The position numbers were made by a program, and so were the translations under genes. From contig NZ_JACICD010000007.1 of NCBI RefSeq assembly GCF_014195655.1, positions 1-64,000 on the forward strand: a DNA stretch of 64,000 nucleotides. Direction: 5' to 3'. This document shows positions 5,563 through 61,258 of the stretch, piece by piece. This DNA comes from Ancylobacter tetraedralis. GTDB taxonomy: Bacteria > Pseudomonadota > Alphaproteobacteria > Rhizobiales > Xanthobacteraceae. How positions within the stretch are numbered: position 1 is the first letter of the stretch; every line of letters starts with the position of its first letter. The notes below the pieces were generated by a model, which was given only the letters and a program-made list of their open reading frames with translations, ran no database searches and had not been told where the DNA came from.

Positions 5563-6855
5563 ATGATCGACATCGCGACGCGCGTCTATAATCACACGTG
5601 GAAGATCGACCCGATCGTGCGTTCGGTGCTCGATACGGATTTCTACAAGCTGCTGATGGCGCAGACCATTTACCGGCGCCACTTCAATACCCGCGTCACA
5701 TTCGGCATCATCAACCGCACGCAGACCGTGCGCATCGCCGATTTCGTCGACGAGGGCGAGTTGCGCGAGCAGCTCGACCATGTGCGCTCGCTGACGCTGA
5801 CGCGCGGGGAATCCACCTGGCTGCGCGGCAACATGTTCTACGGCAAGCGGCAGATGTTCTCGCCGGACTTCATCGCCTGGTTCGAGCGCTTCCGCTTTCC
5901 CGCCTATCATCTGGAACGGCGTGAGGGGCAGTACGAGCTCACCTTCGAGGGGCCGTGGATCGAGACCACGCTGTGGGAAATCCCGGCGCTCGCCATCATC
6001 AACGAGCTGCGCTCGCGTGCCGTGCTGCGCAGCATGGGCCGGTTCGAACTGCAGGTGCTCTATGCCCGGGCGATGACGCGGGTGTGGGAGAAGGTCGAGC
6101 GGCTGAAAAGGCTCGGCGAGGTGAATGTCGCCGATTTCGGCACCCGCCGCCGCCACGGCTTCCTGTGGCAGGACTGGTGCGTGCAGGCGATGATGGAGGG
6201 ATTGGGCGAGCGCTTCATGGGCACGTCCAACTGCCTCATCGCGCTGCGCCGCGAGGTGGAGGCGACCGGCACCAATGCCCATGAGCTGCCGATGGTCTAT
6301 GGCGCGCTGGCCGATTCGGACGCCGATCTGGCCGAATCACCCTACAAGGTGCTGTCCGACTGGCAGAAGGACTATGAGGGCAATCTGCGCGTCATCCTGC
6401 CCGACACATTCGGCACCTCGCATTTTCTCGCCCACGCGCCCGACTGGGTCGCCGGATGGACCGGAATCCGCATCGACAGCAAGGAACCGATCGAGGGTGG
6501 CGAGGAGGCGATCGCCTGGTGGCGGGCCCGCGGGCAGGACCCGACGCGCAAGCTGGCGATCTTTTCCGATGCACTCGACATTGGCGACATCGAGCGAATC
6601 TATCGCCATTTCGACGGCCGCATGCGCATGGGATTCGGCTGGGGAACGCTGCTGACCAATGATTTCCGCGGCTTCGCGCCGGAAGGCCGGCTCGATCCCA
6701 TCTCCATCGTCTGCAAGGTGATTTCCGCCGACGGACGCCCGACGGTGAAACTTTCTGACAATCCGACCAAGGCCATGGGACCGGCCGACGAAATCGCCCG
6801 CTATCAACGGGTTTTCGAGGCGTCGCCGCAGAACGCCCGCGCCCAGACGGTGTGA
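5563..6855 (+). CDS. pncB: Nicotinate phosphoribosyltransferase
   Basis: Catalyses nicotinate + PRPP (+ ATP) to nicotinate mononucleotide, the entry step of the Preiss-Handler NAD salvage pathway. The protein is 430 residues, normal for PncB. Typical stretches are [18 protein letters not shown] near the N-terminus, [17 protein letters not shown] and [14 protein letters not shown]. The last carries the His expected to be phosphorylated, and [10 protein letters not shown] is the phosphoribosyl-binding end. The open frame begins at 5368, but the residues before ATG 5563 are unlike the family, so 5563 is taken. No other NAD gene is adjacent. Confidence 0.93.
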
Positions 6856-7236
6856 ATAACACCTTAAACGGGAGGTAACCCGATAAATACCAGGCGGAGG
6901 TTGTGCAATCGGGCCCATAGTTGCCGCAATCGGTGGCCAATTTGAAAAATCAGTGTTGTGGCTTTCTTGCATCAAGCCCGGATCTGCCGTTAGTGTGGTG
7001 TTCGGAGCGTGCGAGTCAGCAAGGTGAGTATTGGTGAGGGGTTCCGATGCGGCCCGTCCCAGAACCGGAAAGTAACGCATGCGAAGTGTTGATCCGCGCG
7101 TGACCGAGAGGGCGATCTTCGGCGCAGCGATGCGTCAGCGGTCGGCAGCCCGATCCGAGGCCGAGACCTTCCAGGCGAAGCGTATGCGTTTCTGCCCAAT
7201 CGTTTTTTCCGAAACGCCGGTAGAGTGATCAGCGCC
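6856..7236 (+). other. Intergenic region, 381 bases, no gene seen
   Basis: No frame shows family-like protein or a well-placed ribosome site. Its first part (6856-6990) is less GC-rich than its surroundings and is the likely promoter zone of the SH3-domain protein downstream. No terminator with a T-run is evident after pncB. Confidence 0.5.
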
Positions 7237-8721
7237 ATGTCGATGTCGTCGCAGGAGCCGCGCGGTCAGGGTCTTTCGTCATCGCTTGTCAGCGATTTCC
7301 GGGCCATTTTGAACTCTCTCGAGCAGGAGAAGGTTTCCCGCTCCACCGAGCCCGCCGCAGAGCCGCCCGCGCCGGAGAGCGGCGAACCGCAAGCCCTCTC
7401 CGCACATTCTGCTCCGGCAGAGCCCGCGCCCGCGCTGGCCGCTGAACCCGTTCCGGCCCGGCCGGCTGCCCAGCCGCCGCGTCGTTACGCACCGAGCGAG
7501 CGCCCCGCACCGATGGCCTATTCGGAGTTGCGCAGCCGGATTGCCGCGCTGGGCGACGTGAAAGACATGTTCCCGGCCCGCCCCGCCGCCGAGGCCGCGC
7601 CCGTCGTGGCGCCCGCCGCGCGAATCACCGAGCCGGCCCCGCGCGTCGTCGAGGAATTGCGCGCGCCCGAGCCGCGGCCGGCGGAAGCCCATCCGCCGGT
7701 AGCGCCGGCCCCCCGTGCCGCCCCGTCGGCCCCGCGTGCCGCCCCCGCCGCTGCCCTGTCCGAAGCGTTGGAGCCGCGTCGGCGCGGCTTCGGCGCCGCC
7801 CGCCGGAGCGATTGCGACGTACCGGCCCGTCGGCGTCGCAGCGCCAATTCGAGCGAGGCTATCACCTGGCAGCGCGTGGGTGTGCTGGTGGCATGCATGG
7901 TGGTCGTCGGCGGCGGTGCCGTCGCGCTTCAATCGGTGGTTGGGCGAGACGAGACGAAAGTCGCCGCCGACGCGATCGGCAATGCCGCCATCGCCAGCGT
8001 CGCCCCTTCCAGCGGGGCCAGCCTGATCAGCCCGGCGGTCGCCGCTTTCGATCCGGTGTCGCCGCCGGCCGAGCCGAAACCCGAGCCCGCTATGACGGCG
8101 GTGGCTGCCGCACCGGATGTCGAGCCGGAATATGAGCCCGAGACCGATGCGGAGAGCGCCGCCGATGCTCTTGCCTCCGTGCAGAAACCGATGCTGCGCA
8201 ATGCCCGGCCGGTGTTCAATTCCTCGGATCTTCCCGAATTACCGGCCAGCGTGACCGCCTTCGCCCCCGGCGGGGCCAACATTGCCGGCGCGGCGAGCGA
8301 GCCAGCGGACGCCGCCACGATCGCCGCGCCGCCCAAGCGCGCGCCCGTTCCCCCTCCCGCCCCGGTCAAGCACGCCGCTGCCAAGCCTGCCGCGAAGCCG
8401 GCCGAGACGGTCGCGGCGGCGGCTGGCGCGCCGGCGGATGCCGCGGGCGAAGAGCCGGATGTATCCGGCGACGCGGCCGACTCTCAATCCGCTTTTGGCG
8501 GCGATCCGGTTGGCGTGGTGGCACTGCGCTCGTCCGTCTCCATGCGTACCGCGCCGAAGCGAAACGCTTCGGTGATCTCGAACCTGCCGGCGGGCCAGAA
8601 GGTGGAACTGGTGGGCTGCACCAGCTGGTGCGAAGTGATCGTCGAGGGCAAGCGCGGCTACGTCTACAGGAGTTACGTCGACCAGAAGTCACTCCAGCAG
8701 GCCGACGCCGCGCCGGAATGA
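7237..8721 (+). CDS. Single-pass membrane protein with long disordered regions and C-terminal bacterial SH3 domain
   Basis: About 494 residues in three parts. Residues 1-205 are Ala/Pro/Glu-rich and probably disordered and cytoplasmic. One transmembrane helix lies at about 213-232 (VLVACMVVVGGGAVALQ). A second Ala/Pro-rich linker follows, ending in an SH3b domain from about 425 that contains VALRSSVSMRTAP, the paired Cys of VGCTSWCEV, and GYVYRSYVD. SH3b domains often bind peptidoglycan, so the C-terminus is probably periplasmic; this is inference. GTG 7225, ATG 7237 and ATG 7243 are possible starts and none has a strong ribosome site. The specific function is unknown. Confidence 0.75.
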   Translation: MSMSSQEPRGQGLSSSLVSDFRAILNSLEQEKVSRSTEPAAEPPAPESGEPQALSAHSAPAEPAPALAAEPVPARPAAQPPRRYAPSERPAPMAYSELRSRIAALGDVKDMFPARPAAEAAPVVAPAARITEPAPRVVEELRAPEPRPAEAHPPVAPAPRAAPSAPRAAPAAALSEALEPRRRGFGAARRSDCDVPARRRRSANSSEAITWQRVGVLVACMVVVGGGAVALQSVVGRDETKVAADAIGNAAIASVAPSSGASLISPAVAAFDPVSPPAEPKPEPAMTAVAAAPDVEPEYEPETDAESAADALASVQKPMLRNARPVFNSSDLPELPASVTAFAPGGANIAGAASEPADAATIAAPPKRAPVPPPAPVKHAAAKPAAKPAETVAAAAGAPADAAGEEPDVSGDAADSQSAFGGDPVGVVALRSSVSMRTAPKRNASVISNLPAGQKVELVGCTSWCEVIVEGKRGYVYRSYVDQKSLQQADAAPE

Positions 8722-8854
8722 GCGGTTTCGCCGTAACATCTTGAATCATTTATTGAAGCGACGTCGGCGGTGAATGCGCCGCCCGCGCTCGCCTCCCTCC
8801 GGACCGCGTGTTAGACCCCGGTCACGGTAAATTACCCACTCAAGGAAACGATTC

Positions 8855-9856
8855 ATGGCTCAAGGCGAGGCTGCGACGAGCGCTCCCATTCGCATCGGCG
8901 TCGTCGGTGTCGGCGTCATGGGTTACAACCATGCGCGTGTGCTGAACGACCTTCCCGGCGCGCAGCTCGCCGGCATCGCCGACCCCGATGTGGTCCAGCG
9001 CGGCAAGGTCGCGGCGATGCTGGGCTGCCCGGCTGTGGCGGATGTGGACGAGCTGTTCGCCCTCGGCGTGGATGCTCTGGTCGTGGCGGCGCCCACCCAT
9101 CTGCACCACGATGTCGCGATTGCCGCCATCGCCGCGGGCAAGCATGTGCTGGTGGAAAAGCCGATCGCGCCAACCGTGGCGGAGGCGCGGGCCATTGTCG
9201 ACGCCGCCGAGCGGCAGGGCGTCGCCCTGATGGTCGGCCATGTGGAGCGCTTCAACCCGGCGGTCGAGGCGATCAAGAACGCCATTCGTGGCGAGGAAAT
9301 CCTCTCCATCGGCATTACCCGCGTCGGGCCGTTTCCCCCGCGCATGTCGAATGTCGGCGTGGTGATCGACCTCGCCGTGCACGACATCGACCTGATCTGC
9401 CATTTCACGGGATCGCAGATCGCCGAGATCCAGCCGCAGGTGAAGGCGGCGGTGGCGGACCGCGAGGATATCGCGCTGCTGCAGTTCCGCACCGCCAACG
9501 GTGTGCTGGCGCATATCAACACCAACTGGCTGACGCCGTTCAAGGCGCGCACCGTGCATGTGGCCACGCGCAACAAGTATGTCATCGGCGACCTCTTGAC
9601 CCGGCAGGTCACGGAGTGCTTCGACTACAAGCCCGATGGCAGCTATTCGATGCGCCATCTTCCCGTCGCCTATGCCGAGCCACTGCGCGTGGAACTGACC
9701 CGCTTCCTGGAAGCGGTGCGTGGCGAGCGCGGGCCGGCGGTGTCCGGCGAGGATGGCGTCGCCGCCATCGCCACCGCCATTCGATGCCTGGAAAACTTCC
9801 CGACTGCGAAATCGGTCGCCGACCCCACGCCGCTGCGCGTGGTCGCTGCCGGCTGA
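8855..9856 (+). CDS. gnnA: Gfo/Idh/MocA oxidoreductase, probable UDP-GlcNAc 3-oxidase GnnA
   Basis: 333 residues. An N-terminal Rossmann fold (GVVGVGVMGYNHARVL, residues 16-31) is followed by the EKPIAPTVAEA motif that carries the family lysine, then the C-terminal alpha/beta domain with GGVVIDLAVHDIDL-like metal/substrate motifs. It ends 13 bases before a DegT aminotransferase. In 2,3-diamino lipid A producers, GnnA oxidises the C3 hydroxyl of UDP-GlcNAc and GnnB aminates it, giving UDP-GlcNAc3N for LpxA. The pair, their order and lengths fit that role. WbpB-like O-antigen or another sugar pathway is the alternative, but no polysaccharide cluster surrounds it. The family is certain; the GnnA role is inferred. 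Confidence 0.7.
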   Translation: MAQGEAATSAPIRIGVVGVGVMGYNHARVLNDLPGAQLAGIADPDVVQRGKVAAMLGCPAVADVDELFALGVDALVVAAPTHLHHDVAIAAIAAGKHVLVEKPIAPTVAEARAIVDAAERQGVALMVGHVERFNPAVEAIKNAIRGEEILSIGITRVGPFPPRMSNVGVVIDLAVHDIDLICHFTGSQIAEIQPQVKAAVADREDIALLQFRTANGVLAHINTNWLTPFKARTVHVATRNKYVIGDLLTRQVTECFDYKPDGSYSMRHLPVAYAEPLRVELTRFLEAVRGERGPAVSGEDGVAAIATAIRCLENFPTAKSVADPTPLRVVAAG

Positions 9857-9869
9857 GCGAGGAACCGAC

Positions 9870-11039
9870 ATGAACACGCATGTGAAGACCGAGAGCGCCC
9901 CCGTGTCCCTCGCGCCGATTCCCTTCATCGATGTCGCCTCTCAGCGCGCCCGGCTCGGCTCGCGCATCGACGAGGCGGTGACGCGGGTGCTGAACCATTG
10001 CCGCTTCGTGAACGGCCCGGAAGTGACCGAGCTGGAGACCAAGCTCGCCGCCTTCGCTGGCGCCAAGCATGCCATTTCCTGCTCCAGCGGCACGGATGCG
10101 CTGGCCATGCTGCTCATGGCCTGGGGCGTGAAGGCCGGGGATGCGGTGTTCTGCCCCTCCTTCACCTTCTGCGCCACCGCCGAGGTGGTGCCCTGGGTCG
10201 GTGCCACGCCGGTCTTCGTCGACGTGCTTGAAGATACCTTCAACATGGACCCGCGCAGCCTCGAGGCGGCGATCACGGTGGCGAAGGAAAAGGGCCTGAC
10301 CCCGAAAGTGGTGATCCCGGTCGACCTGTTCGGCCAGCCGGCCGATCTCGACGCCATCGAGGCGATCGCGCGGGAACACGGGCTGAAAATCCTGTGCGAC
10401 ACCGCACAGGGATTCGGCGCCACCTGGAACGGCAAGCGCACCGGATCCTTCGGCGATGCGACGGCCACCAGCTTCTTCCCGGCCAAGCCGCTTGGCTGCT
10501 TCGGCGATGGCGGCGCGGTTTTCACCGAGGACGACGACCTCGTGCCGGTGCTCAAGAGTGTGCGCGAGCATGGCCAGGGCGTCGACAAATACGAGAACGT
10601 GCGCATCGGCATGACCGGCCGACTGGATACGATCCAGGCCGCTATCCTGCTGGAGAAGCTCAGCATTTTCGAGGACGAGATCATCGCTCGCCAGCGCGTG
10701 GCCGCGCGCTACAACGAGGCGCTGGCCGATGTTGCCATCGTCCCGTCGGTGGATCCGCGCGCGACCTCGATCTGGGCGCAGTACACGATCCGCCTGCCGG
10801 AAGGTGTGCGCGACGCTCTCGGTGCGGCGCTGCAGAAGGAAGGCGTGCCGACGGCGGTCTATTACCGCATCCCGATGCACCGCCAGCCGGCCTATGCGCA
10901 CTATCCCTCCGCCGGCAACGGTCTGCCGGTTTCCGAACGCCTGTCGGGCGAGGTGATCAGCCTGCCCATGCACGCCTATCTCGACGAGGCGAGCCAGGAC
11001 CGGGTGATCGCGGCGGTGCGGCGCGCGCTGGGGAAATAG
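9870..11039 (+). CDS. gnnB: DegT/DnrJ/EryC1 PLP aminotransferase, probable GnnB
   Basis: 389-residue fold-type I sugar aminotransferase. Motifs are SCSSGTDALAMLLMA (PLP phosphate site), PVDLFGQPADLD, CDTAQGFGA (the Asp contacting PLP) and FFPAKPLGCFGDGGA, in which Lys206 is the internal aldimine lysine. It would transfer an amino group to a 3-keto nucleotide sugar made by the oxidoreductase 13 bases upstream. A GAGGAA site precedes ATG 9870. It is close to WbpE/GnnB-type enzymes in motif pattern. The lipid A role is inferred from pairing and from the taxonomic group, where 2,3-diaminoglucose lipid A is known. Confidence 0.7.
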   Translation: MNTHVKTESAPVSLAPIPFIDVASQRARLGSRIDEAVTRVLNHCRFVNGPEVTELETKLAAFAGAKHAISCSSGTDALAMLLMAWGVKAGDAVFCPSFTFCATAEVVPWVGATPVFVDVLEDTFNMDPRSLEAAITVAKEKGLTPKVVIPVDLFGQPADLDAIEAIAREHGLKILCDTAQGFGATWNGKRTGSFGDATATSFFPAKPLGCFGDGGAVFTEDDDLVPVLKSVREHGQGVDKYENVRIGMTGRLDTIQAAILLEKLSIFEDEIIARQRVAARYNEALADVAIVPSVDPRATSIWAQYTIRLPEGVRDALGAALQKEGVPTAVYYRIPMHRQPAYAHYPSAGNGLPVSERLSGEVISLPMHAYLDEASQDRVIAAVRRALGK

Positions 11040-11094
11040 CTCTTCCCCCCTGCATTTTTGGTACGATGAACCGGAACCCTCCAGGAGCCGGTCG

Positions 11095-11688
11095 ATGGCC
11101 CCGCCCGTACTGAAGCGCATGACGCCGGAAGAGTTCTATCGCTGGCCGGGAGAGGAAGGCGTCCGCTATGAATTGGTGGACGGTTTCCCGCTCAAGGTGA
11201 TGAAGGGCGCCAGTCAGCGCCATGACGCAATCACGCTGAACGTGTTGGCCGCCCTACGTCAAAAACTGCGCGGGTCGCCCTGTCGCGCGAATACGGCCGA
11301 TATCGCTGTCGTCACTCTGTCGGGCAATATTCGGTGACCCGATGCTCTGGTCGATTGCGGCGTCCGGCTGGACACCGCCTATGAGGCGAGTTCGCCGCGT
11401 CTTGTCGTCGAGGTGCTCTCGCCCTCGACGCGGCAGACCGACCTTGGTCGCAAGCTCGAAGAATACAAGGCACTGCCCGCGCTCGCCTATATCCTGCTGG
11501 TCGAGCCGGATGTGCCGAGCGTGCTGCTGTGCTGGCGGGCACCCGGCGATGGGTGGGAGCTGGCGGCGGTGGAGGGGCTGGCGGGCGTCGTCGGTCTTCC
11601 CGGCATCCGCGCCGAACTGGCCATGGGCGAGATTTACGAGGATGTGAGCTTTCCAGACCCGCTGGCGGGCGAGGGTGGGCTCCGTTAG
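11095..11688 (+). pseudogene. Uma2-family (DUF820) PD-(D/E)xK nuclease-like gene with in-frame stop
   Basis: AGGAG precedes ATG 11095, which starts a typical Uma2 protein (MTPEEFYRWP, RYELVDGFPLKVMKGAS). At 11335-11337 codon 81 is TGA, where family members have Arg before the catalytic Pro-Asp. Reading continues in the same frame with PDALVDCGVRLDT, VVEVLSPSTRQTDLGRKLEEY and a normal C-terminus to 11688, for 197 codons in all. A single CGA to TGA transition would explain the break; no frameshift is needed. The truncated product would lose Asp83 and the Glu and Lys of the PD-(D/E)xK core. Readthrough or sequencing error are alternatives. The function of Uma2 proteins is poorly known. Confidence 0.85.
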
Positions 11689-11721
11689 GTTCCGCCACCT
11701 CACAGCGTGGCCGGGCCTTTC

Positions 11722-13266
11722 ATGATTCGCAGCATCTTCTCCGTCGGTGGCTGGACGCTGCTCTCGCGGCTGACCGGCTTCGTGCGCGACATCGTCATGG
11801 CGGCCATCCTCGGCGCCGGGCCGGTGGCGGATGCGTTCTACATCGCGTTCCGCCTGCCGAACCATTTTCGCTCGATCTTCGCCGAGGGGGCGTTCAATAC
11901 CGCCTTCGTGCCCGCCTATGCGCGAGTGAAGACCGTCGAGGGCGAGGCGAATGCGCGGCGCTTCGCCGATGGCATCCTCACCGCCGTCGTCCTCGTGCAA
12001 CTGGCGATCCTCGCTTTGGCGCTGGTGGCGACCGACTGGGTGGTGCGCATCCTCGCGCCCGGATTGGTGGACGATCCCGAACGTTTCGCGCTCACGGTCG
12101 ATTTCACCCGCATCACCTTCCCTTATCTCGGGCTGATCGCGGTGGTGACGCTGGTCGGCGGGGTGCTCAATGCCAATGACCGCTTCTGGGCGGCGGCGGC
12201 CGCGTCCATTCTGCTGAATGTCGCCATGGTCGGGACGCTGAGCGCGGTCGGCCTGTTTCCCAGCGCCGGGGATGCGGCGGCATGGGGCGTGCTGATCTCG
12301 GGATTTCTCCAGCTCGGCCTGCTGGTGTGGGATGCGCAGACGCACGGGCTCGGCCTGCGCTTCGGCCGGCCGCGGCTCGATCCGGAAATGCGCCGTTTCC
12401 TCCTTGCGCTGGGGCCGGCGATCATCGGTTCGGCGGGCACGCAGCTGGCCATCTTCGCCGATACCATTATCGCCTCCTATCTGCCGCAGGGGGCGATCGC
12501 GGCGCTGTTCTATGCCGACCGGATCAACCAGCTGCCGATCGGCGTGGTGGGCATCGCGGCGGGCATCGTGCTGCTGCCGGAAATGTCCAAGCGCATCGCC
12601 GCCGGCGATGTCGATGGCGCCCGCCATGCGCAGGCCCGCGCCATCGAACTGACCATTCTGCTGGTTCTGCCCTTCCTCGCCGCCGCACTGGTCATCCCCG
12701 AGATCATCATGCGCGGCCTGTTCCTGCGCGGCGCGTTCACGGACGAGGCGGCGACCGCGGCCGGGGCGACGCTGGCCGCCTATGGTATCGGGCTGTTGCC
12801 CTTCGTCGTGATGCGCGCCTTCATGTCGCCCTTCTATGCACGGGGCGACACGCGCACCCCGGTCATGGCGACGCTTGGCGCGGCGGCGGTCAATATCGCG
12901 CTCAAGATCTGGCTGATGCACGATCTGCAACAGGTCGGGCTGGCGCTGGCGACCTCGGCCGGCGGCTGGATCACGGTGCTCGTGCTGGCATTCCTGGCGC
13001 ACCGGCGGGGCTATGAATGCGGCGATGCCGCGCTGGCGCGTGTGCTGCCGCGCCTCGCGATGATCGCGCTGGCCATTGCCGTCACGCTGTATGTAACCGG
13101 CATTTACGGGCCGATACTGACTTACCGTCTGACGCGAGGACAGGATATCGCCCTGCTGGCCTTGTGCATTGCAGCGGGCGGGGCCGTCTATGTGGGGCTT
13201 ACCGGTGTGCTGATCGGGCCTGGCTACCTCAAAGGCTTGTTGCGAGCCCGCCCGACGCGCCCGTAA
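11722..13266 (+). CDS. murJ: Lipid II flippase MurJ
   Basis: Polytopic MVF/MATE-like inner-membrane protein (514 aa) that flips undecaprenyl-linked peptidoglycan precursor to the periplasm. The N-terminus IRSIFSVGGWTLLSRLTGFV, the motif FRLPNHFRSIFAEGAFNTAF and the conserved loop ADRINQLPIGVVGIAAGIVL are diagnostic. Fourteen hydrophobic segments are expected and the hydrophobic pattern fits. GTG 11707 is upstream in frame, but ATG 11722 gives the family N-terminus. It follows the broken Uma2 gene by 33 bases and has its own stop before a 139-base gap. Confidence 0.94.
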   Translation: MIRSIFSVGGWTLLSRLTGFVRDIVMAAILGAGPVADAFYIAFRLPNHFRSIFAEGAFNTAFVPAYARVKTVEGEANARRFADGILTAVVLVQLAILALALVATDWVVRILAPGLVDDPERFALTVDFTRITFPYLGLIAVVTLVGGVLNANDRFWAAAAASILLNVAMVGTLSAVGLFPSAGDAAAWGVLISGFLQLGLLVWDAQTHGLGLRFGRPRLDPEMRRFLLALGPAIIGSAGTQLAIFADTIIASYLPQGAIAALFYADRINQLPIGVVGIAAGIVLLPEMSKRIAAGDVDGARHAQARAIELTILLVLPFLAAALVIPEIIMRGLFLRGAFTDEAATAAGATLAAYGIGLLPFVVMRAFMSPFYARGDTRTPVMATLGAAAVNIALKIWLMHDLQQVGLALATSAGGWITVLVLAFLAHRRGYECGDAALARVLPRLAMIALAIAVTLYVTGIYGPILTYRLTRGQDIALLALCIAAGGAVYVGLTGVLIGPGYLKGLLRARPTRP

Positions 13267-53976: not shown

Positions 53977-54534
53977 CTAGCCGTTTTCGCCGTAGCGCAG
54001 CATGCCGGTCCAGAGGATTTCGAGCCGGCGCAACACGCTATAGGTCACCGACATGTCCTGCGCGTCGGGTTCGTCACGCGAGCCGGTGCGCGTGCCCTGC
54101 TCATGCACCGAGCGGATGGCGTCGCACAGTTGCACGGCCTTGGGCGTCAACCGCAGGCGGGCGGAGCGCCGATCGCGCAGCGACGGCGAGCGGTGCACAT
54201 AGTCCGCCTCCACGAGCTGCTTGAGATTGTACGAGGCATTCGAGCCGAGATAGTGCCCGCGCTCCAGCAGGTCGCGCACGGAGAGTTCGTCGCTGCCGAT
54301 GGTGAACAGCAACATCACCTGCGACGGGCTGATGTCGTCGATTCCGAAACGAGCCAGGTCGATTCGCAGCAGATCGAGAAAGCGACGATGCGCACGCTCG
54401 ATCAGCCGGGCGATCTCCAGATGAGTAATGACCTGTTCAGCGTTAGCCTCGTTCGTTGATGGAGCGAGGGATGGTAACTGCAGTCCTTCGCCGTTTTCGG
54501 CGCCGTCAATTTCAGTCGCCGGCTTGCTTGCCAT
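53977..54534 (-). CDS. ldtR: MarR-family winged-helix regulator, LdtR type
   Basis: 185 residues. An N-terminal arm of about 38 is followed by a winged helix-turn-helix: LARFGIDDISPSQVMLLFTI, ELSVRDLLERGHYLGSNASY, and the wing VHRSPSLRDRRSARLRLT. The strongly conserved ERAHRRFLDLLRIDLARFG and GHYLGSNASYNLKQLVEADY are characteristic of LdtR from Liberibacter and its Rhizobiales homologues, which control an L,D-transpeptidase, osmotic tolerance and motility genes. The L,D-transpeptidase target is not in this window. The next gene upstream on the strand is 370 bases away. Confidence 0.8.
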   Translation of the reverse strand: MASKPATEIDGAENGEGLQLPSLAPSTNEANAEQVITHLEIARLIERAHRRFLDLLRIDLARFGIDDISPSQVMLLFTIGSDELSVRDLLERGHYLGSNASYNLKQLVEADYVHRSPSLRDRRSARLRLTPKAVQLCDAIRSVHEQGTRTGSRDEPDAQDMSVTYSVLRRLEILWTGMLRYGENG

Positions 54535-54903
54535 GCGCAGATGCCCCTAATCCCCAAACAAACGCGCGAGCCCGGCCGCGAACGTCCAGACTCGATTCAT
54601 AGTTTATTATGCTACACATGCCGCCAGAAGAAGGCGATTTTCGTTCAGCTCTAAAGTTTTGGCGAATAAAACGGAAATAGACCGTTTCCGGATACCTTTG
54701 CAATGCTGGTGCCCGGCGCGTGCGGCCTGGCCTTGACTTCGGCACCGATATCCTCCCGCAACTGGCAGGGTGACCCTCACACGGCAGCGTTGAGCCAGGC
54801 GAACGACGGGTTGTCGGCGATGCCTGCGATCTGTTGCAACAACCCTGTTTCACGCATCGCGATGGTCGGCGCCCCCTCTGTTCATGCGGGTTCGCTGCCG
54901 CCG
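54535..54903 (-). other. Intergenic region, 369 bases, ldtR promoter zone with one inverted repeat
   Basis: No gene is seen. The segment 54596-54700 is the most AT-rich in the area and should hold the ldtR promoter (minus strand, AATAAACTATGAAT-like). A clean inverted repeat CGGAAA-N7-TTTCCG lies at 54672-54690 and could be an operator, perhaps for LdtR itself. The right part (54700-54903) is GC-rich with short frames only. Confidence 0.5.
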
Positions 54904-55860
54904 TCACGGGTGCCGATGGTGCAGGATGCGACCGATGAAGTTGAGCAGAACCTGCGCGGCGAGGATCGCGGTGGTGCCGGCAGGGTCGTATTCGCGCGCC
55001 ACTTCTACCAGGTCGATGCCCGCCACGGTGCCGCGGCGGGCCAGCCCGTCGAGCAGTTCCAGCACCTCGTAATAGGTGAAGCCGCCATGGCTCGGCGTGC
55101 CGGTGCCGGGGGCGATGGAGGGATCGAAGCCGTCAATGTCGAGCGTCACGTAGTAACGCTTGCCCTCGGGGATGCGCGCCAGCACCGCCTCGGTGCCCAG
55201 CTTGCGGATCTGGCGCACGCTCAGAATGTCCGAGCCCATGGCGCGCGCCGCCTCATAGCCCTCCCGCGCGGTGGAGGAGACGTTGCGGATTCCCAGTTGC
55301 GTGAGGCCGGTGACATAGGGCTTCTCGGCGGCGCGGCGCAGCGGGTTGCCATGGCCGCGGGTGACGCCGTGCCGCTCGTCGACGAAGTCGAGATGCGCGT
55401 CGAACTGCACGATGTGGATCGGCTCCTGTTCCGAGAAAGCCTCGATGCAGGGGATGTTGATCGAATGATCGCCGCCCAGCACCACCGGGAGGGCGCCGGC
55501 CGCCAGGATCTTGCGCACGGCATATTCGATATTGGCGTGGCTGGTGAGCGTGTCCGTGTGGACCATGTCGGCATCGCCGATATCGACGATGCGCGTCGAT
55601 CCGGCGGGAAGGTACGTGATGTCGTCCTCATGGTCATAGGCGCCGGAATGGCCGAACGAAAACAGTGTCGAAGCCTCGCGAATGGCGCGCGGACCCGAGC
55701 GCGCGCCCGAGCGCCACTGCGTGCCGAGGTCGAACGGCGCGCCCAGCACCGCGACATCGGCATCGATGGCGTTCCAGTCGAGTTGCAGCGGGTATTTGCC
55801 GAAAGTGCAGATGCCGACGAAGGGCAGATCAAGCCGGCCCGCTTCATAACCGTGCGACAT
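54904..55860 (-). CDS. Arginase/agmatinase-family ureohydrolase B
   Basis: 318 residues with the complete binuclear metal set: VVLGGDHSINIP, VQFDAHLDF, and YVTLDIDGFDPSIAPGTGTP. The family hydrolyses guanidino groups to urea plus an amine. The specificity loop reads GHGNPLRRAAEK where agmatinases usually have a (S/T)HGTPFRR-type stretch, so the substrate may not be agmatine. Its ATG overlaps the stop of the paired ureohydrolase A (TGATG). It is the last gene of a five-gene operon with a creatininase homologue and two SDR oxidoreductases. Confidence 0.87.
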   Translation of the reverse strand: MSHGYEAGRLDLPFVGICTFGKYPLQLDWNAIDADVAVLGAPFDLGTQWRSGARSGPRAIREASTLFSFGHSGAYDHEDDITYLPAGSTRIVDIGDADMVHTDTLTSHANIEYAVRKILAAGALPVVLGGDHSINIPCIEAFSEQEPIHIVQFDAHLDFVDERHGVTRGHGNPLRRAAEKPYVTGLTQLGIRNVSSTAREGYEAARAMGSDILSVRQIRKLGTEAVLARIPEGKRYYVTLDIDGFDPSIAPGTGTPSHGGFTYYEVLELLDGLARRGTVAGIDLVEVAREYDPAGTTAILAAQVLLNFIGRILHHRHP

Positions 55861-56816
55861 CAGCGCGCTCCCTTCCGCTCGACGACGCCGGCGAGCACGC
55901 AGAGCAGTTCAAACAGGATGGTGGCGCCCGTCAGCGCGGTGAGGCCGGAGGGATCGAAGGGCGGAGCGACTTCGACAAGGTCGGCGCCGATGATGTCCAG
56001 CCCGTCGAGCAGGCGCACCATGGCCTGCGCCTCGCGCGTGGAGAAGCCGCCGATTTCCGGCGTGCCGGTGCCGGGCGCCTGCGAGGGGTCGATGCCGTCA
56101 ATGTCGAAGGTGACATAGGTGGGCGCGTCGCCGACGATGGCCCGTGCTTCCGCCATCACGTCCTCGACGCCGCGCGCGACCAGTTCCTCGATGAAGATGA
56201 TGCGCACCCCGACATCGCGGGCATAGTCGTAATTGCCGGCATCCGAGATCGCGCCGCGCAGGCCGATCTGCACGAAGCGCTTGGGGTCGACCAGCCCTTC
56301 CTCGATGGCGCGGCGGAACGGCGTGCCATGGGTGTAGCGACTTCCGTTGAAGAAACTATCGTAAGTGTCTGAATGCGCATCGAACTGGATGAGGCCGACG
56401 GGGCCGTCTTCCGCCAGCCCGCGCAGGATCGGCAGGCTGATGAGATGGTCGCCGCCCGCCGTCAGCGGCCGCGCCCCGGCCGCGCGCACGCTCGCATAAT
56501 GGGCGCTGATGAGGTCGAGCGAGCGCATCAGGTCGAACGGGTCGATGATGACATCGCCGCAATCGGCCACCCGCGCGCGGTCATAGGGCGACAGGCCGGT
56601 GACGTGATGCACGCGGCGCATCAGGCTCGACTGGTTGCGCAGCTCGCGCGGTCCGTGGCGGGTGCCGGCCCGGTTGGTGGTGCCGAGATCGAAGGGCACG
56701 CCGAGTATGGCGATGTCGACCTCCGATGGCTCGGCGACCGGCAGCCGCATGAAGGTCGGAAGGCCCGCAAAGCGCGGGACGGTGCCGGAATCGAGCGGCT
56801 CGAACTTGCCTGTCAT
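55860..56816 (-). CDS. Arginase/agmatinase-family ureohydrolase A
   Basis: 318 residues. The metal motifs are LTAGGDHLISLP, IQFDAHSDTYDSFF and YVTFDIDGIDPSQAPGTGTP, all intact. The loop THGTPFRRAIEEG matches ordinary agmatinase/guanidinobutyrase enzymes. It differs clearly from the coupled ureohydrolase B in sequence despite the same length. Two non-identical ureohydrolases in tandem suggest either a two-step use of different guanidino substrates or a hetero-oligomer. It follows the creatininase-family gene by 19 bases. Confidence 0.87.
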   Translation of the reverse strand: MTGKFEPLDSGTVPRFAGLPTFMRLPVAEPSEVDIAILGVPFDLGTTNRAGTRHGPRELRNQSSLMRRVHHVTGLSPYDRARVADCGDVIIDPFDLMRSLDLISAHYASVRAAGARPLTAGGDHLISLPILRGLAEDGPVGLIQFDAHSDTYDSFFNGSRYTHGTPFRRAIEEGLVDPKRFVQIGLRGAISDAGNYDYARDVGVRIIFIEELVARGVEDVMAEARAIVGDAPTYVTFDIDGIDPSQAPGTGTPEIGGFSTREAQAMVRLLDGLDIIGADLVEVAPPFDPSGLTALTGATILFELLCVLAGVVERKGAR

Positions 56817-56835
56817 GGGATACCTCGCGAGCCTC

Positions 56836-57612
56836 TCAGAGCCCGAATTCCTTGGTGATGGCGGCGGATATGCGGGTGATGTAGTCGCCCATCAGCAATT
56901 CGCCCTTCTGTGCCGTGGACCCGACAGCGACCGCCAGAACGCCGGAAGGCGGCAGGCCGAAATCGTCCGGCACGGGAAACTTGTCATAGGTCGGGAACGT
57001 GGCCGGCCCGTCGTTCGGCACCTTGTCCATCTCGACGAGGTCGGGCCGCAGCACCAGCATGAGCGAGGTCTCCAGGAGGCTCGCATGTTCAAGGTCGATG
57101 CCGGGGAAGCCGTCCGGGAACAGCTGGTCGAGCGTGGCGCGGGTGGCGAAGTCCCAGTATTCCAGCCGCATCACCTGCATGTCGGTAATGCCGTCGCGGC
57201 GCAGTTCGCGCAGGGCAAGGTCCAGCCCCTCCACCGAGGGCCAGCAATTCTCGTAGTGGCCGTTGACGATGACCAGCCGGCGCACACCCTGGCGGCCGAG
57301 ATTGCGGATCACGTCACGCAGCACCAGCGCGAACGTGTGGGCATCCAGGCTCAACGTGCCGGGAAACACCTCGCCGCCGCCCGAGCGCGGCATGGACTTG
57401 CAGCCGTAATTGAGCGTCGGCGCGACGATGCCGCCGATCTCGCGTGCGACGCGCTCGCACACGCCGGTCGGCAGCACGACGTCGACATTCAGCGGCAGGT
57501 GGGGGCCGTGCTGCTCGGTGGAGCCGAGCGGCAGCAGCACGGGCGCACCGGCCGCCACCTTCTGCGCGAATTCCGGCCAGCTCAGTTCGTCGAGCCGCAC
57601 GCTGTCGACCAT
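56836..57612 (-). CDS. Creatininase-family amidohydrolase
   Basis: 258 residues. The metal-binding segment LLPLGSTEQHGPHLPLNVDV holds Glu33, His35 and Asp44. VIVNGHYENCWP (the usual NGHGGN with Tyr-Glu) and LEHASLLETSLML (Glu) complete the site. Creatininase opens the creatinine ring; relatives act on other cyclic amides, formamides or peptides. AGGAAAAGACC precedes ATG 57612. Adjacent ureohydrolases would fit cleavage of a cyclic guanidino compound followed by removal of urea, which is inference. Confidence 0.87.
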   Translation of the reverse strand: MVDSVRLDELSWPEFAQKVAAGAPVLLPLGSTEQHGPHLPLNVDVVLPTGVCERVAREIGGIVAPTLNYGCKSMPRSGGGEVFPGTLSLDAHTFALVLRDVIRNLGRQGVRRLVIVNGHYENCWPSVEGLDLALRELRRDGITDMQVMRLEYWDFATRATLDQLFPDGFPGIDLEHASLLETSLMLVLRPDLVEMDKVPNDGPATFPTYDKFPVPDDFGLPPSGVLAVAVGSTAQKGELLMGDYITRISAAITKEFGL

Positions 57613-57638
57613 GGTCTTTTCCTCTGATGTCGTTGGAT

Positions 57639-58391
57639 TCAGTGCATTGCCGCGCCGCCGTCGACGCTGATGCATTGGCCGGTGATGAAGCCGGTGGCGC
57701 GGCTGAGCAGGAACAGCACGGCCTGCGCCACTTCCTCCGGCCGGCCGACGCGGCCGAGCGGGTTGGCGGTCTCCAGCTTCTGCGCCTCCGGGCTCATCGC
57801 GCCGAAGCCGAGCAGCGGCGTATCCACCGGGCCGGGGGCGATGGCGTTGACCAGAATGTGCGGGCCCAGCTCGCGCGCGAAGGCGCGGGTCAGCGAGACG
57901 ATCGCGCCCTTGGTCGCGCAATAGCCGGAGGCGCCGGCGCGGCCGAGATAGGCCAGCTCGGAGGCGATGTTGACGATGCGCCCGCGCGTCTCGCCGCGCC
58001 CGTTGAAATGGCGCAGGGCTTCGCGCGCCATCAGGATGGGGCCGCGCACATTCACCGCCGCCATGCGCTCATAGGCCTCGACATCGAATTGCGCGAGCGG
58101 CATCTCGATGAGCAGGCCGGCGCAGTTGACGATGGCGTCCAACCCGCCGAGCTCGGCCACGGCCGCCTCCATACCGGCGACGACGGAGGCCTCCTCCGCC
58201 ACATTGGTGATGATGGTTGCCCAGTTGGCGCGGTCCGGCGGGCGCAGGTCGAAGCCGATGACCTTGGCACCGGCCTCGAACAGCGCATCCGCCGTGGCGC
58301 GGCCAATACCGCTCGCGGCGCCGGTGACGACGACGCGAAGATCCTTGTGGGGGGCTTCCCTGTGGTGGGCTTCCTTGTGAGGCGTTACCAT
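57639..58391 (-). CDS. Short-chain dehydrogenase/reductase (SDR) 2
   Basis: 250 residues. The NAD(P)-binding motif is VVVTGAASGIGRATADALFE, NCAGL follows, and the catalytic Ser/Tyr/Lys lie in VNIASELAYLG and SGYCATKGAIV; VDGGAAMH ends the protein. The N-terminus has an unusual 16-residue His/Lys/Glu-rich extension made from a short DNA repeat (58335-58385). Its ATG overlaps the end of SDR 1 (ATGGTAA), so translation is coupled. The substrate is unknown. Confidence 0.87.
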   Translation of the reverse strand: MVTPHKEAHHREAPHKDLRVVVTGAASGIGRATADALFEAGAKVIGFDLRPPDRANWATIITNVAEEASVVAGMEAAVAELGGLDAIVNCAGLLIEMPLAQFDVEAYERMAAVNVRGPILMAREALRHFNGRGETRGRIVNIASELAYLGRAGASGYCATKGAIVSLTRAFARELGPHILVNAIAPGPVDTPLLGFGAMSPEAQKLETANPLGRVGRPEEVAQAVLFLLSRATGFITGQCISVDGGAAMH

Positions 58392-59143
58392 GTGAATTCT
58401 CCGCGATCGACACCGACGCTCTGGCCGGTGATGTTGGAGGCAAGGTCGGACGCCAGGAACAGATAGGTGCCGGCCACGTCGTCCGGCTCCATGAAGCCGG
58501 GCAGGATCTGCGCGGCGACGATCTCCTGCAGCAGCACGTCCGGCTCCAGGCCGGTGCGCGCCGCCATGGCATGGAGCGAGCGCAGCGAGGCTTCCGTGCG
58601 CACCCAGCCCGGGCATACCGCGTTCACGGTGATGCCGCGCGGGCCGAGCTCCTTCGCCCAGGTCTTGGTCAGGCCGATGGTTGCGTGCTTGGAGGCGACA
58701 TAGGCGCCGAACAACGCTTCCGCCCCGCGCGACCACACCGAGGCGGTGTTGATGATGCGCCCGCCATGGCCCATCCGAGGCAGCAGGGCGCGGGTGACGA
58801 GGAAGGTGCCGAGCACGTTGATCTCCAGCACGCGGCGGAACGTCGCCTCATTGGCTTCGCTCGCATCGTCCAGCGGGGTCACCCGTTCGAGCCCGGCATT
58901 GTTCACCAGCACGTGAAGATGGGGGATTGCGGCGGCGACCTTGCTGACGGCTTCGCTGGAGGTGATGTCGGCGCAGTGGCCGCGCGCGCCGAGCCGCCCG
59001 GCCACCTCGAAGATGGCGGCATCATCGGCCAGCATGTGCAGTTCCGCGCCGGCGGCGGCAAAGGCCCGGGCAATGCCGAGCCCTATACCCCGGCTCGACC
59101 CGGTAACGAGCACGGTGCGCCCGGAAAGCCCCTCAAGGCTCAT
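58385..59143 (-). CDS. Short-chain dehydrogenase/reductase (SDR) 1
   Basis: 252 residues. The cofactor motif is VLVTGSSRGIGLGIARAFAA, then VLVNNAGLERVTPL, and the catalytic Ser/Tyr/Lys are in NTASVWSRG and GAYVASKHATIGL; the protein ends SVGVDRGEFTW. It is the first gene of the five-gene operon, starting at ATG 59143 with GGGAG upstream, and is divergent from the LysR regulator. It is only distantly similar to SDR 2, so the two probably act on different intermediates. Confidence 0.87.
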   Translation of the reverse strand: MSLEGLSGRTVLVTGSSRGIGLGIARAFAAAGAELHMLADDAAIFEVAGRLGARGHCADITSSEAVSKVAAAIPHLHVLVNNAGLERVTPLDDASEANEATFRRVLEINVLGTFLVTRALLPRMGHGGRIINTASVWSRGAEALFGAYVASKHATIGLTKTWAKELGPRGITVNAVCPGWVRTEASLRSLHAMAARTGLEPDVLLQEIVAAQILPGFMEPDDVAGTYLFLASDLASNITGQSVGVDRGEFTW

Positions 59144-59233
59144 GCGGCGCTCCCGCGTCGGGTGCGGACAGGATGGATGAAAGGCACGCTGGCGCTCCTG
59201 TGCGAGAACGACGCCATGGTCTCGCAAATTCAC

Positions 59234-59250
59234 TTCCGAAAAAATCGGAA
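59234..59250. promoter_or_regulatory. Candidate LysR operator 1 (TTCCGA-N5-TCGGAA)
   Basis: A perfect 6-bp inverted repeat around AAAAA. It contains a T-N11-A pattern like LysR boxes and lies in the gap between the divergent SDR operon and the LysR gene. Confidence 0.6.
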
Positions 59251-59260
59251 TTAGTGGAAG

Positions 59261-59286
59261 CTTACATCGAGATAAATCGATGTGAG
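59261..59286. promoter_or_regulatory. Candidate LysR operator 2 (ACATCGA-N6-TCGATGT)
   Basis: A perfect 7-bp inverted repeat (59264-59270 and 59277-59283), extendable to 10 bp with one mismatch. It ends 20 bases before the LysR ATG at 59306, so binding would fit autorepression, with the first palindrome on the operon side. Confidence 0.65.
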
Positions 59287-59305
59287 CAGAAAGGAGCCGA
59301 ACCCC

Positions 59306-60244
59306 ATGCGGCGGCTCGACAATATCGACCTGCGCCTGCTGCGCGTCTTCGTCGTGCTGGCGCAGGAGGGCGGGTTCCAGGATGCGCAGATCGCGCTCAA
59401 TCTCTCCCAGTCCACCCTCTCCACGCATCTGGCGGCGCTGGAACGCAAGCTGGGCGGGCAATTATGTGAGCGGGGGCGGGCCGGCTTCCGCCTCACGCCG
59501 TTCGGCGAAGCGATTCTTGCCGCCGCGCTCCAACTCTTCGAGGATATCGATGCGTTCCACGGCCGCATCGGGCGCGACCAGCAGCGCCTCGTGGGACGGC
59601 TTCGGGTCGGTATTGTCGATGGCGTGGTGACGAACCCGCGGCTCGGCCTGCAGACCGCGCTGGCGCGCTACATGGCCTATGCCTCGGAAGTGTTCGTCGA
59701 CCTCGAACTCGGCACGCCGCTGGTGCTGGAGCGCGCGCTGATGGATGGCGTGCGGGACGTGGTGATCGGCCCGTTCTCGCAGAAGGTGCCCGGCATCACC
59801 TATGTGCCGCTGCACCGCGAGCCGCAGGCGCTCTATTGCGGGCGCGGCCATCCCCTGTTCGCGCTGCCGGCGGAGGAAATCAGCCATGCGCGAATCGAGG
59901 AAGCGCTGTTCTCGGTGCGGCGCTACCGCCACCTCGACGATCTCTACCGGGTGAACCACCCGCGCGCCAGCGCCGCCATCGTGCAGATGGAGGCGCAGGT
60001 GATGATGATCCTGTCCGGCCGCTTCATCGGCTACCTGCCGCGCCATATCGGCGAGGACTGGGCGGGTCGTGGGCAGATGCGCGTGCTGCGGCCGGAGAGC
60101 TACGGTTTCGCATCGCCGCATTTCGCCGCCACCCGCCGGCTCTCGGGCGAGCAGCCGCTGGTCGATGCCTTCCTGCGCGAACTGGTGGCGCAGGCGCGCA
60201 CCGGCGCGGGCGAGGCTGCGCCGCCGGAAGCGGGGGAGCCGTAG
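59306..60244 (+). CDS. LysR-family transcriptional regulator
   Basis: 312 residues. The N-terminal winged helix is at about 1-62 (LRLLRVFVVLAQEGGFQDAQ, then LSQSTLSTHLAALERKLGGQ), followed by a periplasmic-binding-protein-like effector domain. AAGGAG 9 bases before ATG 59306 fixes the start; GTG 59282 is upstream in frame. It is divergent from the SDR/creatininase/ureohydrolase operon and probably activates it in response to a pathway intermediate. It converges with the epimerase gene with only 3 bases between. Confidence 0.9.
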   Translation: MRRLDNIDLRLLRVFVVLAQEGGFQDAQIALNLSQSTLSTHLAALERKLGGQLCERGRAGFRLTPFGEAILAAALQLFEDIDAFHGRIGRDQQRLVGRLRVGIVDGVVTNPRLGLQTALARYMAYASEVFVDLELGTPLVLERALMDGVRDVVIGPFSQKVPGITYVPLHREPQALYCGRGHPLFALPAEEISHARIEEALFSVRRYRHLDDLYRVNHPRASAAIVQMEAQVMMILSGRFIGYLPRHIGEDWAGRGQMRVLRPESYGFASPHFAATRRLSGEQPLVDAFLRELVAQARTGAGEAAPPEAGEP

Positions 60245-60247
60245 CGC

Positions 60248-61258
60248 TCAGAGATAGGCGCGCGCGTCGAGATACCAGTCGACAAAGGCGCGCACGCCCT
60301 CCTGCAGCGGCGTCGCCGGCCGATAGCCGGTAAGCGCGACGAGTAGGTCCGGGCTGGCGAAGGTGCGCGGCACGTCACCCTTCTGCATGGGCAGCATGAG
60401 GCGCCGGGCCGGCCGGCCGAGCACGGTCTCGATCGTCTCGACGAAATCGATCAGCCCCACCGGCTGGCCGCCGCCGATGTTCACCACGCGGTAGGGCCCC
60501 TGGTGCGACAGGGTGTCGATGCCGGCGGGCGCTTCCACCCGGTTGGCCTCGTCCGGCGGCCGTGCGGCGAGGCGCAGGATGGCCTCGATCAGGTCGTCAA
60601 TATAGGTGAAGTCGCGGCTCATCCGCCCTTCGCCATAAATCTCGATCTCGCGGTCCTCGAGCATGGCGGCGACGAACTTGAACAGCGCCATGTCCGGCCG
60701 GCCCCAGGGGCCATACACGGTGAAGAAGCGGAAGGCGGTGGTCGGCAGCCGGTAGAGATGGGCATAGGAATGGCCCATCGCCTCCATCCCTTTCTTGCTG
60801 GCGGCATAGAAGGTCAGCGGCTCGTCGGCGCGGTCCGTCTCGTGGAAGGGGATGGTCGGGTTGGCGCCGTAGATCGAGGAGGTGGAGGCGAGCAACAGAT
60901 GCTGGACGCCCAGCTCGCGCGCCAGTTCCAGCACGTTCCACGAGCCGACAAGGTTGGAATCGAGATAGGCCTTGGGATTTTCCAGGCTGTAGCGCACCCC
61001 CGCCTGCGCGGCGAGGTGGACGATGACATCGGGCCGGGCCGTGGCGGCGCGGGCCAGCGCGGCGCGGTCCTCCAGCATGCCGATATGCGCCGTGAAGGCG
61101 GGAAACTGCGCCAGCGCGGCGTGCCGGGCCTCCTTGAGCTTGAGATTGTAATAGGCGGTCATGCCGTCGAAGCCGACCACCTCATGGCCTTCCTCGAGCA
61201 GGCGCCGGGCCAGATGGTAGCCGATGAAACCCGCCGTGCCGGTGATGAAGTAACGCAT
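60248..61258 (-). CDS. UDP-glucuronate 4-epimerase-like NAD-dependent epimerase
   Basis: 336-residue extended SDR. The Rossmann motif is [20 protein letters not shown], the family-typical [17 protein letters not shown] marks UDP-glucuronate 4-epimerases (LspL/Cap1J type), and the active site has STSSIYGAN and [10 protein letters not shown] (YxxxK). It would supply UDP-galacturonate for lipopolysaccharide core or capsule. ATG 61258 is taken; the frame continues to 61315 without quality. It lies alone among convergent and unrelated neighbours. Confidence 0.88.

Follow-up and report, generated by a model that had tools for sequence, protein, structure and literature searches.

Which compound does a five-enzyme gene cluster of Ancylobacter tetraedralis break down? 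The cluster lies in a stretch of 64,000 nucleotides (nt), hereafter the window (assembly GCF_014195655.1, contig NZ_JACICD010000007.1, positions 1 to 64,000), and combines two short-chain dehydrogenases (SDRs), a creatininase-family amidohydrolase, and two ureohydrolases, divergent from a LysR-type regulator gene. The cluster and its divergent LysR gene were confirmed, and the arrangement is found well outside this strain. Its general function is likely that of a conserved guanidino catabolic module, and we put at about 0.5 the probability that it serves, under LysR control, the catabolism of a small hydroxylated guanidino compound. The genes are as follows:

58385-59143, minus strand: SDR1, short-chain dehydrogenase, 252 amino acids (aa), TGSSRGIG and YVASK motifs (Pfam/NCBIfam)
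57639-58391, minus strand: SDR2, short-chain dehydrogenase, 250 aa, TGAASGIG and YCATK motifs (Pfam/NCBIfam)
56836-57612, minus strand: CRN, creatininase-family amidohydrolase, 258 aa, conserved metal ligands, Ile replacing Trp174
55860-56816, minus strand: UH1, ureohydrolase, 318 aa, 58% identity to 3-guanidinopropionase 3nip, metal motifs intact
54904-55860, minus strand: UH2, second ureohydrolase, 318 aa, 37% identity to UH1, metal motifs intact
59306-60244, plus strand: LysR-type regulator, 312 aa from ATG, divergent from SDR1 (Pfam/NCBIfam)

Pfam and NCBIfam searches of the window genes assigned SDR1 and SDR2 to the SDRs, CRN to the creatininase family, UH1 and UH2 to the arginase family, and the regulator to the LysR type. 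The open reading frames (ORFs) and junctions, when read again, agreed with an earlier sequence-only reading, which had described five genes on the minus strand, overlapping or less than 30 nt apart, and a divergent LysR gene: SDR1 and SDR2 overlap in ATGGTAA, TGATG is common to UH1 and UH2, and the other two gaps measure 26 and 19 nt. An Asp after strand 2, which in SDRs is a sign of NAD use, suggests that SDR1 is of the NAD type. For LysR, ATG 59306 is better placed as the start than GTG 59282 because, among other evidence, the N-terminus of a relative is MRRLDNIDLR.

Conservation of the gene cluster

When 397 genomes from the order Hyphomicrobiales were searched with CRN, 34 matched at E <= 1e-40. 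Neighbourhoods were compared in 28 of these in addition to that of the window itself, as well as at a second locus in G077 (G numbers denote genomes and L numbers loci); G087, G098, G144, G262, and G277 were left out of this step. A sister genome of the window's genus carries the same genes side by side at 73-92% identity, and other families of the order carry them together at about 45-89%, so the clustering is more than chance. The order SDR1-SDR2-CRN-UH1, often followed by UH2, recurs within the genus and in several other families. Among the best 80 of 591 CRN relatives in named genomes, the cluster was also found in Methylopila, Hansschlegelia, Jiella, Mesorhizobium, and Acetobacter, in reordered form in a Rhodospirillaceae bacterium, and as variants in Pseudomonas, Stutzerimonas, and a Burkholderiales bacterium. 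On a plasmid of Rhizobium sp. CIAT894, SDR1 and SDR2 are divergent from CRN and UH1. The neighbourhood search that the sequence-only reading had proposed thus found the set conserved far beyond the strain, across Hyphomicrobiales and in Acetobacter.

Exchange of enzymes around SDR1

Searching the same 397 genomes with SDR1 gave 34 matches at E <= 1e-60. Counting was based on the best SDR1 locus per genome and the 6 kb around it on the same strand, with six of the 34 loci near contig ends. SDR2 was present in 30/34 loci. The ring opener varied, being CRN in 21 loci (one a 29% match) and a PuuE-like protein in eight, with both in none and neither in five (G038, G098, G114, G233, and G297). When the six contig-end loci were removed, the counts were 18, 8, 0, and 2, respectively (n = 28; Fisher p 1.4e-5, for loci that are not independent). 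An SDR1 tree of 52 rows, of which 34 are the matches above and 18 come from named genomes (at least two are duplicates; 46 are labelled), was made by a quick method and has several long branches. It requires at least three changes of the CRN/PuuE label, and fewer if only the strongly supported branches are counted. The two ring openers are not universal alternatives, as both genes occur together outside SDR1 loci (L058, L146). In G233, CRN stands with SDR2 and a Rieske gene at another place, L050, where a Rieske gene and the ethanolamine ammonia-lyase genes EutB and EutC come after SDR2-like and CRN genes (5835-11866).

The amidino-hydrolase slot was similarly variable: UH1 was found in 22 of the 34 loci (one at only 32%), UH2 in 17, an ADI-fold enzyme in three, and DUF1989 in five, at least one of these being present in 31. 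At some loci a deiminase-fold enzyme or DUF1989 takes the place of the ureohydrolase or stands beside it, as does a biuret-hydrolase-like enzyme in Pseudomonas; in L053, an ADI/DDAH-fold enzyme and DUF1989 replace the ureohydrolase. The exchanged parts are unrelated to each other but similar in chemistry. Allophanate hydrolase adjoins the operon in L044, L045, and L056.

The creatininase-family enzyme

One reading of CRN would be ordinary creatinine use with a ureohydrolase in place of creatinase, in which creatinine is converted to creatine and then to sarcosine and urea. CRN passes the NCBIfam creatininase model TIGR04448 (364.8 bits against a cut-off of 235) and PF02633, its best solved relative is creatininase, and its homologue on the CIAT894 plasmid is named creatininase in the record. 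It shares 52% identity and a template modelling (TM) score of 0.95 with solved creatininases such as that of P. putida (EC 3.5.2.10, 1j2t), and keeps E34, H36, D45, H120, and E122, which we take to be the creatininase metal-ligand positions.

Alignment of 112 creatininase-family sequences revealed a difference at Trp174, presumably the residue over the creatinine pocket; PDB titles record W174F and W154 mutants of creatininase. The set comprised 43 SDR-linked sequences (SDR1 >=42% and SDR2 >=35% identity, within 6.5 kb, same strand), 10 creatinase-linked sequences from nine loci, and 59 others. Trp174 was absent from all 43 SDR-linked CRNs (T 17, I 16, F 4, M 2, V 1, Y 1, and two gaps, both in distant paralogues; in at least two pairs of loci, both members stem from the same genome), whereas it was present in 10/10 creatinase-linked and 20/59 other sequences. 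The window CRN has Ile, and one extra plasmid example each of an SDR-linked and a creatinase-linked CRN agrees with the pattern. On this residue evidence, creatinine breakdown is probably not the role of the operon. Moreover, no creatinase gene was found near any of the 43 SDR-linked CRNs; the neighbours in the window are, unlike those expected for creatininase, an SDR pair and a ureohydrolase, and ordinary creatinine use, which leaves both SDRs without a role, is quite improbable.

An oxidative creatinine route would give one SDR a role: creatinine would be hydroxylated to creatol and oxidized by an SDR to creatone, CRN would open the ring, and a ureohydrolase would split methylguanidine into methylamine and urea. 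CRN is still creatininase-like, some relatives have a Rieske gene, L091 encodes a desaturase-type protein, and glutamine-synthetase-type genes lie near L060 and L142. Creatol and methylguanidine also arise abiotically from creatinine, according to an excerpt of PMC3775425. However, the window operon has no hydroxylase, a Rieske gene occurs in just 4/34 SDR1 loci, and the best Rieske homologue elsewhere in the window genome reaches 28%. As UH1 resembles a guanidino-acid enzyme and the second SDR is left unexplained, we regard this route as unlikely.

The ureohydrolases

UH1 was closest to the 3-guanidinopropionase GpuA of P. aeruginosa (3nip; 407 bits, 58% identity), with which it shares the YTHGTPFRRA loop, although UH1 lies inside a five-enzyme operon. 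The best solved relative of UH2 was D. radiodurans agmatinase (196 bits). UH2 matches at E <= 1e-60 were found in 65/397 genomes (five only at 51-56% identity), including 24 of the 34 SDR1 genomes and 41 genomes without SDR1, and UH2 was therefore rejected as a strict partner of UH1.

The pair of adjacent paralogous genes recalls metformin hydrolase MetCaCb, itself an adjacent ureohydrolase pair in which one subunit lacks the metal cluster (excerpt of PMC11271267), and UH1 and UH2 might likewise form one heteromeric hydrolase. Unlike that pair, both window proteins have the GGDH, DAHxD, and DxD metal motifs, by which an active enzyme with a pseudoenzyme partner was rejected, and UH2 also occurs without the operon, as the 41/65 genomes above show. 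A single heteromeric enzyme is accordingly improbable.

Two SDRs with two ureohydrolases could also serve to degrade streptidine or another diguanidino cyclitol, the SDRs yielding a diketone, CRN acting as an IolN-like carbon-carbon hydrolase, and UH1 and UH2 removing the two guanidino groups. CRN does match the IolN diketo-inositol hydrolase model NF041098, weakly, at 66.3 bits against a cut-off of 245. With UH2 near SDR1 in only half of the loci (17/34) and UH1 nearest to an enzyme of short guanidino acids, this scheme is very unlikely.

Other ureohydrolase settings were observed. L199 (8008-14509) and L208 (2447-8981) hold UH2 with a PuuE-like-cluster gene and an apparent BMP-type ATP-binding cassette (ABC) transporter, without the SDR pair, the names coming from the cluster and a look at the sequences. 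The window genome encodes at G000:C1:82162-83573 (L217 8163-9392 and upstream) a long ureohydrolase whose best match is 7esr (542 bits), presumably the Synechocystis guanidine hydrolase; a guanidine-I riboswitch lies about 70 nt upstream of the ORF, and the protein is a putative guanidine hydrolase (GdmH-like) separate from the operon. At G000:C7:255000-257100 (L214 9012-11103), a Rieske-type gene overlaps a ureohydrolase gene in which GGDH has become GGDG, next to what looks by sequence like a branched-chain-type ABC cassette. At G000:C12 (L216 8445-11557), another ureohydrolase gene adjoins, judged from sequence starts, a DUF1989-like gene and an apparent polar-amino-acid-type ABC cassette.

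Guanidine riboswitches

In all three Pseudomonas-type loci with the SDR pair (L088, L090, and L091), a guanidine-I riboswitch precedes the binding-protein gene, and the same scan found none in L085, L087, L095, L084, L076, and L092, the last of which ends at most 180 nt from the first gene. In L132, the riboswitch precedes DUF1989 genes near CRN, ABC, and SDR genes. Anywhere in the genome, guanidine-I riboswitches were present in 21/34 genomes with SDR1 vs 56/363 others, and by genus in 12/21 vs 28/120 (hand-counted), relatedness inflating both sets of figures.

Proposed pathway

The route we favour draws on the recurring SDR pair, both members presumably of the NAD type, and on the exchange of both cyclic-amide hydrolase types and guanidino hydrolases; its reactions, its regulation by LysR, and its substrate are all putative. 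SDR1 would oxidize an alcohol to an aldehyde or ketone that closes on its own guanidino nitrogen to form a cyclic hemiaminal, and SDR2 would convert the hemiaminal to a cyclic acylguanidine, a creatinine-like lactam. This scheme would account for the lack of an aldehyde dehydrogenase gene in the set of five. Lactam opening by CRN would yield a short guanidino acid, similar in size to 3-guanidinopropionate or guanidinoacetate, which UH1, with or without UH2, would split into urea and an amino acid. Urease, for which the window genome has two matches, would release ammonia, with urea serving as the nitrogen source. Relatives would take up the compound through an NMT1-type ABC transporter, and in some of them a Rieske or diiron enzyme may act beforehand to hydroxylate a precursor. 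The exchanged parts and the guanidine-I riboswitch of the Pseudomonas relatives point to guanidino chemistry. Oxidation, ring opening, and guanidino cleavage, as the sequence-only reading had proposed them, fit together in a conserved module with a putative alcohol oxidation and a putative substrate.

Several findings weigh against this route. The predicted structure of CRN (predicted local distance difference test score, pLDDT, 92.3) resembles that of true creatininase, by the fold similarity and identity given above. The window UH1 has Phe at the place of Tyr157, the specificity residue of 3-guanidinopropionase (excerpt of PMC10833137); some relatives of the operon, including L051, L052, L054, and L056, have Tyr there. 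No guanidine riboswitch was found at the window operon at the gathering threshold, nor among the three matches up to E 1 in 54500-60400, and none occurs at the operons of the 34 genomes of the order, the nearest being about 6.6 kb beyond LysR (G010). The Pseudomonas loci L085, L087, and L095 have CRN without the SDR pair and, like L092, without the riboswitch. Within 6 kb, no amidino hydrolase was found in G038, G114, and G297, all near contig ends. The three PuuE-like proteins tested scored 79-98 bits against a PuuE cut-off of 424.6, so that their reaction is conjectural, and CRN and PuuE-like genes stand side by side outside SDR1 loci in L058, L146, and, by sequence look, L124. In the Pseudomonas variant L091, no ureohydrolase is present; a biuret-hydrolase-like protein, which scores 262.5 bits against a cut-off of 370, is encoded instead, and the substrate class may thus differ there.

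Searches of open-licence literature on the gene set, single enzymes, and compounds returned no description of the five-gene set among the matches listed, in line with the earlier remark that no characterized operon with exactly this set is known; nor is the operon described in the excerpts of PMC9772407, PMC10833137, PMC11271267, PMC12508155, PMC12186494, and PMC7266159. Guanidine carboxylase and GdmH systems under guanidine riboswitches share with the operon variants the surrounding NMT1-type ABC, DUF1989, allophanate hydrolase, and guanidine-I riboswitch. The proposed route would differ from those systems in starting with carbon oxidation and ring opening, and the window operon lacks the riboswitch and carboxylase, with the GdmH-like gene elsewhere in the genome. 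We tentatively suggest, at somewhat less than even odds, a widespread undescribed route in which two SDRs turn a hydroxyalkylguanidine into a cyclic acylguanidine, a creatininase-type enzyme lacking Trp174 or a PuuE-like lactamase opens it, and ureohydrolases split the product. If so, a good number of the proteins at present annotated as creatininase would be part of this route, which suggests that automatic names (creatininase, agmatinase) may hide a different pathway. Guanidine riboswitches showed the weight of guanidino compounds in bacteria, for which few natural substrates and routes are known, and a conserved module with exchangeable parts and a Pseudomonas guanidine-I riboswitch offers direct test cases.

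Transporter genes, intergenic region, and neighbouring genes

The sequence-only reading had noted the absence of a dedicated transporter. This held for the window operon and few other loci: of 22 loci that have a LysR match, 18 carry genes for an NMT1-family binding protein, permease, and ATPase between LysR and SDR1 (types read in L043 and L053 and assigned by similarity in the other loci). The LysR-SDR1 gap is 138-140 nt without transporter genes in the window, the sister genome, and L051, L253 has an ATPase match only, and no importer was found between LysR and SDR1 in either sampled genome of the window's genus. Elsewhere in the window genome, the best importer match was just 32%, and this candidate was rejected, as was the 28% Rieske match.

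Two inverted repeats lie between the divergent genes of the window:

59264-59283, no strand: inverted repeat ACATCGA-N6-TCGATGT, candidate LysR operator
59234-59250, no strand: second inverted repeat TTCCGA-N5-TCGGAA

Among 20 intergenic stretches compared, ACATCGA/TCGATGT-like arms were found in the window, L039, L040, L042, L044, and L045, with a similar repeat in L209 and none by this test in the other 13; the second pattern had no match in the other 19.

A protein family next to operons (L091 11206-12006, L043 11425-12186, L132 16323-16964, and kin) gave no Pfam or NCBIfam match for the two members tested; it was predicted to be beta-rich (pLDDT 85.7), with 3rby (yeast YLR301w) and then lipocalin-like entries as the nearest solved structures. 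L142, L146, L124, L127, L141, and L144, from Verrucomicrobia and others, combine NMT1-type ABC matches with a distant creatininase-family gene, and L142 additionally carries genes for a Rieske protein, glutamine synthetase III, two DUF1989 proteins, and a urea-carboxylase-type enzyme. An Rfam scan placed a tRNA gene at 2178-2250 of the window.

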